A stretch of DNA of 64,000 nt, taken from contig JAHLLG010000006.1 of the NCBI GenBank assembly GCA_020444275.1, forward strand, positions 76,316 through 140,315. The letters are read 5' to 3'. Made by a program: the position numbers and the translations under genes. This stretch comes from Bacteroidota bacterium. Lineage in GTDB: Bacteria; Bacteroidota; Bacteroidia; Bacteroidales; UBA12077. Positions within the stretch are counted from its first letter, which is position 1; every line of letters begins with the position of its first letter. The notes under the pieces were generated by a model. It had not been told where the DNA came from. It ran no database searches and was given only the letters and a program-made list of their open reading frames with translations. Of this stretch, positions 55,599 through 58,374 are shown piece by piece.

Positions 55599-56084
55599 AT
55601 GACTGTAGAGGAATATAATAAGAGTGTTGACATGTATTCGGATGGCGTGTATCGCTTTATCCTTAAGAATATTAAGGATGACGACGATGCAAAGGATATT
55701 GTGCAGGATACGTTTGAAAAGTTGTGGATTAGAGCAGGTGATGTTTCGTACGGAAAAGTTAAATCGTACCTGTTTTCAACTGCTTATCACACGATGATCG
55801 ATAAGATCAGAAAAAACAAACGAATTACGCAGCTAAACGAGTATAATGATGATATCGGAACATATACAGGAGTTTATAGCGGATTATCTGAAGTGTTGGA
55901 TGAAGCATTAAAGCAATTGCCTGATGTACAACGTTCAGTTATTTTACTTCGGGATTACGAAGGATATGCATACAACGAAATTGCTGAAATAACCAATTTA
56001 TCTGAATCGCAAGTGAAAGTTTATATATACAGGGGACGTTTAGCTCTTAAGAAATACATTGGAAGTGTTGAAGCGATAGTTTAG
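55599..56084 (+). CDS. ECF-type RNA polymerase sigma factor
   Basis: 161 residues. Region 2 (DGVYRFILKNIKDDDDAKDIVQDTFEKLW) and region 4 (LPDVQRSVILLRDYEGYAYNEIAEITNLSESQVKVYIYRGRLALKKY) are complete. It directs RNA polymerase to a small regulon, probably of envelope-stress type. It is followed after 14 bp by a membrane anti-sigma-like gene. Confidence 0.94.
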   Translation: MTVEEYNKSVDMYSDGVYRFILKNIKDDDDAKDIVQDTFEKLWIRAGDVSYGKVKSYLFSTAYHTMIDKIRKNKRITQLNEYNDDIGTYTGVYSGLSEVLDEALKQLPDVQRSVILLRDYEGYAYNEIAEITNLSESQVKVYIYRGRLALKKYIGSVEAIV

Positions 56085-56098: not shown

Positions 56099-57199
56099 AT
56101 GATTAATATTAACAGAAATAACTACGAAGAATATTTTATTGATTACCTGGATGGAAATTTATCTCGTTCAGATAAACAACATTTATTCTTATTTCTGGAA
56201 CAAAATCCTGACCTGAAAGAGGAACTTGAAATGTTCCACGAAGAGTCTTTGGTGGCTGATGAGGTTTATTTTGAGGGTAAACAAGGTTTAAAAAGAGAAC
56301 AGATTCTTCATTCCGATAATCACATTGACGAACTTTGCATTGCAAGTATAGAAGGGGATTTAACAGAAAAACAACAAGCTGATTTTGATCGCTATTTAAA
56401 AGAGAATGCTGAAAAGCAACAAGAGTTTGTAGTTTATACAAAGACAAAGCTTAAAGCGAATGAAGCGATTGTATTCTCCGATAAATACAAGCTCAAAAAG
56501 AATGAAAGTAAGTTATTTTCACGTAAGGTTGTTTCCATAATTTCTGCTGCCGCATCTGTCGTTCTTTTAGTTAGTTTGTACTTTTTACTACCTGAAAAAA
56601 CAGAGTATTTAAACAATCAGCACATTTCACAGCAGATTAAGGTTGACGATGATGCTGTTAAAACAAAGGAAATCAAACAAAGTTCTACTTATGCGGAGGG
56701 TGAAAATAAGAACGCAATTAAAAGCTTGAAATCAATAGAAAATAAATTATTACCTGAAGTAAAAGTTGAAGAAAATTTTATAGTTGCTTTAACTAAAAGT
56801 AAAGATGACAAGAAAAATCCTGAAGAGAAAAGGATAGTGGTTCCGAAAAAGCTCAAATCAGTTAAAATAAAGTATGCGCATACCGCGGAAATAGGAGTTC
56901 CTTATTTAGCTGATGTAGCTTTGCCTGAAATAGAGATAGAAAACAGAACAGAACAAATGGAGAATTATCATACCTTAAAAACTTTTCTGGCATCGGCTTT
57001 TAACAAGCGGATGTTGAATAAAGAAGACAAAGATAAAATAGAATTTTTTGATATCGCTCAAGCCGGTGTCAAAGGAATAAACAAACTAACCGGAAGTAAT
57101 ATGAAACTTGAGCGCAGATATGATCAAAATGGCAACCTCGACAAAACTGAGTTTAACTCGCGCCTTGTGGCTTTTTCAGCTCCGGTTAAGAAAAAATAA
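56099..57199 (+). CDS. Anti-sigma-factor-like membrane protein
   Basis: 366 residues. The N-terminal cytoplasmic part (about 1-140) has two copies of an anti-sigma-like helical pattern (YEEYFIDYLDGNLSRSDKQHL and IDELCIASIEGDLTEKQQADF). A membrane helix is at about 144-164, followed by a charged periplasmic part with a TEFNSRLVAFSAPVKKK end. The gene follows the ECF sigma gene with a strong ribosome site, so it most likely binds and silences that sigma factor. Confidence 0.8.
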   Translation: MININRNNYEEYFIDYLDGNLSRSDKQHLFLFLEQNPDLKEELEMFHEESLVADEVYFEGKQGLKREQILHSDNHIDELCIASIEGDLTEKQQADFDRYLKENAEKQQEFVVYTKTKLKANEAIVFSDKYKLKKNESKLFSRKVVSIISAAASVVLLVSLYFLLPEKTEYLNNQHISQQIKVDDDAVKTKEIKQSSTYAEGENKNAIKSLKSIENKLLPEVKVEENFIVALTKSKDDKKNPEEKRIVVPKKLKSVKIKYAHTAEIGVPYLADVALPEIEIENRTEQMENYHTLKTFLASAFNKRMLNKEDKDKIEFFDIAQAGVKGINKLTGSNMKLERRYDQNGNLDKTEFNSRLVAFSAPVKKK

Positions 57200-57282: not shown

Positions 57283-58161
57283 ATGAAAAAAATAGCATTA
57301 GTATTAGTTACCTTAATAATTACATTAGGCGTATTCGGACAAAATGATCCGGACATTGATGAAATGAAGGAAGAGCTACAAAAACAAAAGGATGATACAA
57401 CAAACATCCGGTTTAAAAGAAAAACAGTAAAAATCGTTGAAGATGGCGACGAAACGCAAATTTTTGTAAAAAAACACAAAAAAGAGGATTGGGACTGGTT
57501 TTGGGATGATAACGATCGTTTTAAAGGTTCTTGGTCTGGATTTTCTATGGGTTATAGCAATTTTGTTGACAACAGTTTTCAACTAACTGATGGTGGAGCA
57601 TCATATATGGATTTAAATACTGGTAAATCATGGAATATGAACATTAACTTTGCACAGTATTCGATCAATTTCGTAAATGATAAGTTTGGGTTGGTAACTG
57701 GTTTAGGAATAGAATGGAACTATTATCGTTTCGATGATGATTACTCTATTCAGGAAAGTCCTGTTGATGGGACCATAGAACCGGTAGATTTAAGTGTGGA
57801 ACATCCAACGTGGAATATTGAAAAATCGAAACTTTCTACTACGTATGCAACATTACCTGTTCTACTTGAAGTCCACACATCTTCATCACAAAGCAGAGGT
57901 CTGGTTTTTTCAGCAGGAGCTATAGGAGGTGTTAAGCTGGGATCAAACACAAAAATTGTGTATAAGGAAAACGGTGATAAAAACAAAGACAAATCAAAAG
58001 ATGATTACAACCTTTCACCATTCAGATATGGATTGCATGCCCGAATTGGTGTGGGCGACTGGTTAATATACGGAACGTATTATTTAACGCCACTCTTTGA
58101 AAAAGACAAAGGTCCTGAGTTGTATCCTATTTCAGTAGGTATTGCCTTGTCGTTTGAATAA
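57283..58161 (+). CDS. Outer-membrane beta-barrel protein of the sigma operon
   Basis: 292 residues with signal peptide (to VFGQ, about 20), then a charged, mixed segment (about 25-70) rich in Lys/Asp (KKEDWDWFWDDND), then barrel-like strands ending ISVGIALSFE. Similar PorT/OMP-type proteins end ECF sigma operons in many Bacteroidota. It may be the effector or the signal-giver of the sigma/anti-sigma pair. Function unknown. Confidence 0.75.
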   Translation: MKKIALVLVTLIITLGVFGQNDPDIDEMKEELQKQKDDTTNIRFKRKTVKIVEDGDETQIFVKKHKKEDWDWFWDDNDRFKGSWSGFSMGYSNFVDNSFQLTDGGASYMDLNTGKSWNMNINFAQYSINFVNDKFGLVTGLGIEWNYYRFDDDYSIQESPVDGTIEPVDLSVEHPTWNIEKSKLSTTYATLPVLLEVHTSSSQSRGLVFSAGAIGGVKLGSNTKIVYKENGDKNKDKSKDDYNLSPFRYGLHARIGVGDWLIYGTYYLTPLFEKDKGPELYPISVGIALSFE

Positions 58162-58168
58162 AAAAATG

Positions 58169-58195
58169 AAACCCGGTTTTAAACCGGGTTTTTTA
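58169..58195. terminator. Bidirectional terminator
   Basis: AACCCGGTTT / AAACCGGGTT with a 1-nt centre (loop in practice 4-5 nt), T run after it on the plus strand and T-rich tail on the minus strand. It ends the barrel gene and the small peptide gene. Confidence 0.82.
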
Positions 58196-58205
58196 ATGAT
58201 AGTAT

Positions 58206-58334
58206 TTAAGATACTTCATCTGCTAAATCATTGCCTGCTTTAAATTTTACTACTTTCTTTGGAGTAGTACCTGAGTCATCTCCGCCTTTAATTTTCTGCA
58301 ATTGAGCAATTGTTAATTTTTTGAATTTTTTCAT
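58206..58334 (-). CDS. Double-glycine-leader peptide (natural-product/bacteriocin-type precursor)
   Basis: 42 residues: MKKFKKLTIAQLQKIKGG, then a 24-residue hydrophilic core rich in Asp, Lys, Thr, Ser and Val with no Cys or aromatic cluster apart from one Phe. The leader pattern K-L-T-x-x-Q-L-x-K-I-K-G-G matches the GG-type leaders cut by C39 peptidase-ABC exporters in Bacteroidota. No maturation enzyme or C39 transporter is visible within the window. A TATATTCG box (58367-58374, minus) lies 32 bp before the ATG, and the terminator follows the stop. Could alternatively be a small regulatory peptide. Confidence 0.7.
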   Translation of the reverse strand: MKKFKKLTIAQLQKIKGGDDSGTTPKKVVKFKAGNDLADEVS

Positions 58335-58366: not shown

Positions 58367-58374
58367 CGAATATA
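58367..58374 (-). promoter_or_regulatory. Candidate -7 box of the GG-peptide gene
   Basis: TATATTCG on the minus strand, one base off TAnnTTTG, 32 bp before the peptide ATG. Confidence 0.35.

Follow-up and report, generated by a model that had tools for sequence, protein, structure and literature searches.

Double-glycine leader peptides with cores resembling segments of the DNA-packing protein HU in an uncultured Bacteroidales lineage

The window analyzed here, a 64,000-nucleotide stretch of DNA from a Bacteroidota bacterium of the order Bacteroidales, carries a short gene that, judged from its sequence, encodes a double-glycine (GG) leader peptide with a core that mimics a segment of HU. 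Six genes for such HU-type GG peptides were found in 5 of 20 genomes of the genus (G000, which holds the window, and G001, G008, G012 and G017); five of them carry a core resembling the HU tail, and the sixth, G008a, one that copies HU helix alpha2. The leader is ordinary, the core is unusual and the gene is real. We tentatively favor an explanation in which the peptide is an exported HU mimic with HU itself as its partner, ahead of one in which it is a signal for a TPR receptor.

Results

A GG-Leader Peptide Gene beside a TPR-SpoIIE Phosphatase Gene

The peptide gene converges on an outer-membrane barrel gene on one side and diverges from a gene for a TPR-SpoIIE phosphatase on the other, in the following arrangement:

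55599..56084, plus strand: ECF-type sigma factor (context)
56099..57199, plus strand: 366-aa protein downstream of the sigma factor, with no Pfam family over cut-off (context)
57283..58161, plus strand: outer-membrane beta-barrel protein (PF13568), with a relative in 16 of 20 genus genomes
58169..58191, unstranded: terminator-like hairpin between the converging peptide and barrel genes
58206..58334, minus strand: GG-leader peptide gene, 42 aa plus stop, ATG to TAA, called from its translation, TIGR01847 and its relatives
58209..58280, minus strand: predicted mature core DDSGTTPKKVVKFKAGNDLADEVS, 24 residues, assuming a cut after GG
58212..58259, minus strand: HU-mimic segment KKVVKFKAGNDLADEV, corresponding to residues 74-89 (beta3-alpha3) of the genome's own HU; 0 of 10,000 shuffles as good
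58281..58334, minus strand: leader MKKFKKLTIAQLQKIKGG, with L-12, L-7, I-4, G-2 and G-1 (residues L7, L12, I15, G17 and G18)
58367..58374, minus strand: TATATTCG, candidate -7 box lying 33 bp upstream of the start codon
58531..60582, plus strand: TPR and SpoIIE phosphatase, 683 aa, divergent neighbor of the peptide gene

The initial annotation had called a 42-residue minus-strand frame with a GG leader and a Cys-free core; its coordinates and translation (MKKFKKLTIAQLQKIKGGDDSGTTPKKVVKFKAGNDLADEVS) are exact, the core indeed contains no Cys, and the leader passes the NCBIfam model for bacteriocin GG signals (TIGR01847; 16.9 bits, cut-off 15.7). The glycine pair and the hydrophobic residues at -4, -7 and -12 conform to the C39 pattern, for which PMC6363468 describes protease recognition of Val-4, Leu-7 and Leu-12, seated in a hydrophobic groove. 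A loose scan of the window returned four short frames with GG, this one alone being GG-leader-like by eye. Its proposed place in a Bacteroidales precursor family did not survive: like the rSAM-modified precursors of TIGR04149 the peptide comes from Bacteroidota and has a GG leader, but membership was rejected at 8.4 bits against a cut-off of 25; no radical-SAM gene is among the adjacent genes. The leader_Chryseo model NF047798 also fails (19.2 bits, cut-off 23.5). As to the flanking signals claimed at the outset, the upstream box TATATTCG is present and resembles the Bacteroidota -7 box TAnnTTTG, but no clear -33 box was seen by eye upstream of the gene; the downstream hairpin also exists, but it sits between converging genes and 1.4 such hairpins are expected by chance in the 3 kb scanned.

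The phosphatase has an N-terminal signal and one transmembrane segment by eye, and its TPR domain is therefore probably periplasmic; the product of 56099-57199 is, from its position, perhaps an anti-sigma factor. PADLOC, run on four neighbor proteins, named only a TPR model. The AlphaFold model of the peptide, which has a mean pLDDT of 66.5 and short helices at residues 9-16 and 36-40, is not strong enough to rely on, and a PDB search with the peptide gave no match at E 10.

The Core Resembles the Tail of HU

The charged, 24-residue core had been described correctly as far as the description went, its likeness to HU having been missed. Searched against its own genome, the window peptide returned itself and one place only, the C-terminus of the genome's HU (E 0.046), a protein that matches PF00216 at 119.5 bits; there, KKVVKFKAGNDLADEV of the peptide is identical to KNVVKFKAGSDLADAV of HU at 13 of 16 positions. 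PF00216 scores the peptide itself at 13.7 bits (cut-off 22.4), matching only profile positions 63-89 of 90. The Pfam HU model was returned, below cut-off, for the window peptide only and was unlisted for the G008, G012 and G017 peptides; the best Pfam match of the G012 HU-type core was Flagellin_IN (17.4 bits, cut-off 22.7, E 0.0052). Taken alone, the window match to HU is only suggestive, and it is the family that makes it firm at the level of sequence.

Compared with the HU of their own genomes, five of the six cores exceed all 10,000 shuffles and the tail-type core of G008 (G008b) has one shuffle in 10,000 as good, within a set whose tail-type members were found by likeness to the window peptide and are hence a biased sample. 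G008a is free of this bias, having been picked up by its leader and gene order with its HU likeness unused: behind leader MEILTIKQMQYVKGG, its core ADAKKAMDAFIYSTTDDDDVPPKKD copies HU residues 19-33, with 13 of 15 residues identical to ADAKKALDAFITSTT of its own HU. As a comparison, 39 other GG cores (44 non-HU GG cores minus near-duplicates) were scored against the HU of G000; the best reached 22, near the shuffle means of 19-21 and thus background.

Several further candidates were rejected. The core GKVGGFAVSGRSPS and its two variants (G012, G016) had 685, 598 and 929 of 5000 shuffles as good when taken as a third HU fragment, and the core DDPQLDSAIKALEND.. (G001, L101) had 1648 of 5000 when taken as HU alpha2. 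GG cores as mimics of other proteins gained no support from Pfam on 30 GG peptides, which returned leader-type families (ComC, Bacteriocin_IIc) and weak single matches, the strongest of the non-leader ones being Flagellin_IN in the G012 HU-type peptide. That the genes are HU pseudogenes was likewise discarded, their leaders not deriving from HU and their frames being intact.

Distribution within and outside the Genus

The search set comprised 59 relatives and the 20 genus genomes, several of which are 70-90% complete, so the five genomes with HU-type peptides are a lower bound. The HU-tail peptides share the pattern FKAGxDLxxxV and differ in their leaders (MKKFKKLTIAQLQKIKGG, MKNFEQLSACQMQQIKGG, MKLEILTSDELRKIKGG, MKTKKTKKDPKKNKKEIDVKDLENVTGG and MKVKKLKKELLKRFEINSKQLHLIRGG), the same core standing behind at least three leader types by eye.

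The barrel-gene relative marks a gene-order site in 16 genus genomes. Conservation of the frame among relatives, proposed initially as a check, holds in part: a GG-peptide frame is found at 4 of the 16 loci (G000, G001, G008 and G012), intact where present, and no GG peptide is found at the other 12. The peptide at the site is of the HU-tail type in G000, G001 and G012 and is G008a in G008; G008b and the G017 gene lie at two other places. At ten of the 12 sites without a peptide the barrel gene still adjoins the phosphatase gene; G010 retains only the last 67 phosphatase residues, and none of the phosphatase was seen within the G015 locus. The named relatives closest to the barrel gene, 11 with at least 62% identity, belong to metagenome bins of uncultured Bacteroidales, Marinilabiliales or Bacteroidetes.

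Outside the genus, no HU-type GG peptide was found with a genus-tuned profile in samples of 393 genomes of the order and 395 of the phylum. At E 1e-6 the tail-type profile gave matches in 12 of the order genomes, namely G000, three HUs of the genus and eight others that all proved to be HU on reading, a 62-aa frame in G176 being an HU cut by the contig start. In the phylum sample it matched G000 only; the HU tails of other lineages fell below threshold there, so peptides copying a different HU could escape this profile. The alpha2-type query (E 0.02, order sample) returned the HU of G000 and a 92-aa frame in G207; it did not return G008 itself, and the sample is thus partial.

Interchangeable Leaders and Cores in G012

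Nucleotide comparison in G012 indicates that leader and core are exchangeable modules. The leader DNA of its HU peptide is identical at 79, 76 and 76 of 84 positions to that of three GG genes, two in G012 and one in G016, and the first 45 core nucleotides of the same comparison are identical at only 13-16 positions (ungapped), the switch in identity falling directly after the GG codons. The 79-of-84 match is to a gene beside a C39 exporter, and two G012 paralogues follow a gene run whose products are a 536-aa protein that looks HlyD-like by eye, a C39-ABC protein and one of 970 aa. In the corresponding region (L230:1446-8829), this run is followed by two peptides with VTGG leaders and a core G(K/S)VGGFAVSGR... 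In G012 (L041, about 360-450), the DNA of the HU-tail core is also repeated over a short stretch, the second copy being out of frame after the stop.

Exporters and Comparison with Known Systems

The genome search for a C39 peptidase-ABC exporter that had been recommended found one copy in the window genome (G000:C10:221582); it is on a different contig, and no exporter adjoins the window peptide gene. C39 exporters were found in 18 of the 20 genus genomes, including all five with HU-type peptides, and in G001 the two share a contig at a distance of about 20 kb. No immunity gene was recognized near the window peptide. Other GG precursors were seen in the window genome: at L044:13555-18778, a Cys-bearing precursor is followed by two proteins, both with radical-SAM/SPASM-like Cys motifs by eye, and then by the sole C39 exporter found; at L102:2115-2568, two tandem precursors with CSC-bearing cores lie upstream of a 491-aa protein.

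The window peptide shares with C39-exported peptides of the class II bacteriocin type the leader pattern, the TIGR01847 match and an exporter in the genome; unlike them, it has a Cys-less core copying a housekeeping protein, with neither an exporter nor a recognized immunity gene alongside. Its core resembles the beta3-alpha3 tail of HU (PF00216), but at 42 aa with a GG leader, against a full fold of about 90 aa, the peptide is not an HU. Bacteroidetocins, as described in PMC6671954, are likewise Bacteroidota GG-leader peptides served by a double-glycine peptidase ABC transporter, but they contain four Cys, and their four-gene region includes a thiol oxidoreductase and the transporter; the window peptide has no Cys, and its neighbors are the barrel and TPR-SpoIIE genes. 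Among the matches listed in literature searches on HU with GG precursors or on HU-interface peptides (two of the lists giving the best 10 of 18 and the best 10 of 315), none described HU-mimic GG peptides; among the matches listed on GG peptides with TPR, CHAT or C39 (one of the lists giving the best 12 of 500), none described such peptides. Both statements refer to titles and abstract starts from a literature with few subscription journals and no preprints.

TPR Neighbors and the Possibility of a Signal

The initial annotation had left a bacteriocin and a signal as options, which they still are. Read as a signal, the exported core would be sensed by the periplasmic TPR domain of the divergent phosphatase, which would relay to a sigma or anti-sigma switch, the likeness to HU being incidental or a signal that mimics lysis. 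We compiled 50 GG peptides from the family-level group, dropping weak, unfetched and ATG-less matches; among these rows, which are not independent, a TPR gene is the nearest gene of at least 120 aa on one side for 25 of 32 Cys-less non-HU peptides, 1 of 12 Cys-bearing and 3 of 6 HU-type peptides, compared with 3 TPR genes of 48 in the window. A position beside a TPR gene, which had been thought unusual, is therefore common among such peptides. All ten neighbor proteins scanned, that of the window included, contain TPR domains, and in eight a CHAT, HATPase/HisKA or SpoIIE domain also exceeds its cut-off; of the remaining two, both from loci cut short, the L096 protein has CHAT below cut-off and the L039 protein none of these. 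This adjacency suggests peptide-sensor pairing in the genus and to that extent supports a signaling role for the window peptide, as does the TPR-SpoIIE phosphatase that adjoins three of the six HU-type genes, a fourth (G012) being cut by the contig end. Even so, we consider this role somewhat unlikely: in ten genomes of the genus the phosphatase stands beside the barrel gene with no peptide, so that retention of the sensor is not tied to the peptide; G008b and G017 have no TPR neighbor; and the match to HU is left unexplained. A gene for a small peptide adjoining one for a TPR sensor is also a feature of RRNPP systems, in which peptide pheromones are read by TPR receptors; those receptors are cytoplasmic and their peptides re-imported, unlike the TPR domain of the window's neighbor, which looks periplasmic by eye.

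Short Cys-less GG peptides beside TPR genes, often divergent, were seen at L044:10231-10401 (with L044:7239-10022) and also at L039, L088, L089, L094-L098, L159-L162, L164, L166, L167, L169, L171-L173 and L175, with cores such as DGDPDDDLWPP.. or DGDPTSRDNDFD. The combination looks like a peptide-sensor arrangement.

HU Tails on Other Proteins

An improbable alternative is that the HU tail is a portable tag recognized not by HU but by, for instance, a protease, a chaperone, or a factor for anchoring or secretion, GG peptides being one of several carriers. It draws on two further genomes of the order, in which proteins of 148-151 aa, unrelated to the GG peptides, also terminate in an HU tail, in one of these genomes beside a DUF6266 gene, and it leaves the alpha2-type core of G008a unexplained; we know of no recognizer of such a tag. 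The HU-tail-ending proteins (L224:2248-3169, L225:2943-3864, L226:1853-2308 and L227:1181-1636, in genomes G036 and G051) have the tail AKKVVKFKAGNDLAGKVR and similar, those of L224 lying near the DUF6266 gene, and no Pfam family was found in the three 148-151-aa proteins tested.

Codon Differences and Scattered Presence

More improbable still is that fragments of the HU gene were captured behind GG leaders by chance and have since drifted without function. Scattered presence speaks for it: on a barrel-protein tree of 15 genus genomes and 4 outgroups, the peptide label needs 4 changes, at least 3 of them forced by well-supported branches, and is unclustered, 181 of 500 shuffled labels needing as few; moreover, G016, the closest relative of G012, has no peptide at the site. 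The codons tell in both directions. Over the best ungapped stretch against the own HU, synonymous and nonsynonymous differences number 7 and 3 of 16 codons in G000, 7 and 3 of 18 in G012, 6 and 0 of 14 in G017, 6 and 2 of 15 in G008a, 4 and 5 of 16 in G008b, and 6 and 12 of 23 in G001; as a whole, G001 and G008b thus show little constraint toward HU, as expected of drift. Against drift, all six nucleotide differences within the 14-residue stretches of identity in G012 and G017 are third-position and synonymous, and all five codon differences between the two copies of a unit AGSDLSNTVQ in G008b are synonymous, with P values of about 1e-4 for each of the former and 1e-3 for the latter that are overstated, the stretches having been picked because they are identical. 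The intact frames and the recurrence of one core behind several leader types also count against it. Amino-acid constraint on the core is, on these sequence comparisons, supported but not proven in G012, G017 and G008b; it is weaker in G000 and G008a and absent from the G001 evidence.

Discussion

Returning to the exported HU mimic, we propose that the gene would give rise to a GG-leader precursor, that the C39 peptidase-ABC exporter, whose gene lies at a different place in the genome, would cut the leader and export the 24-residue peptide, and that the functional part of this peptide would imitate the beta3-alpha3 segment of HU, a relative imitating alpha2. The partner would then be HU itself, which the mimic may compete for or cap, either as HU released onto extracellular DNA or as HU in closely related neighboring cells. 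In favor of this explanation we count the HU likeness of the six cores against the background of other GG cores, the use of two different HU segments, the codon differences, the shared leader DNA of G012 and the C39 exporters in all five genomes, and also that the Phe of KFKAG and the Phe of LDAFI fall in the two copied HU segments. Specific beta3-alpha3 hydrogen bonds are reported in PMC5093408; since they are said there to be absent from other HUs, we give them no weight. As HU is cytosolic, the proposal requires either that the peptide enter cells or that HU be present outside them, and the missing adjacent exporter and immunity gene, the absence of a peptide at most gene-order sites, the divergence of G001 and G008b, the Pfam HU match below cut-off and the weak structure model all weigh against this explanation.

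In its broadest form, the proposal is that an uncultured Bacteroidales lineage exports short peptides imitating two different dimer-interface segments of HU, that HU, extracellular or in kin cells, is the target of this bacteriocin-like or matrix-modulating class, and that cores and GG leaders are exchanged at the cleavage site. We advance this whole more guardedly than the identification of HU as partner, as possible rather than probable.

Exported bacterial peptides are usually classified by leader, with the core regarded as free-form; in the present case, parts of a single DNA-packing protein stand behind several different leaders. Should HU prove to be their target, the peptides would represent molecular mimicry of the nucleoid by exported peptides and would offer HU-interface inhibitors of natural origin. 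What orphan GG peptides do next to TPR genes in Bacteroidota also becomes directly testable. The HU-mimic GG peptide suggests that a bacterium exports imitations of a core component of the cell.
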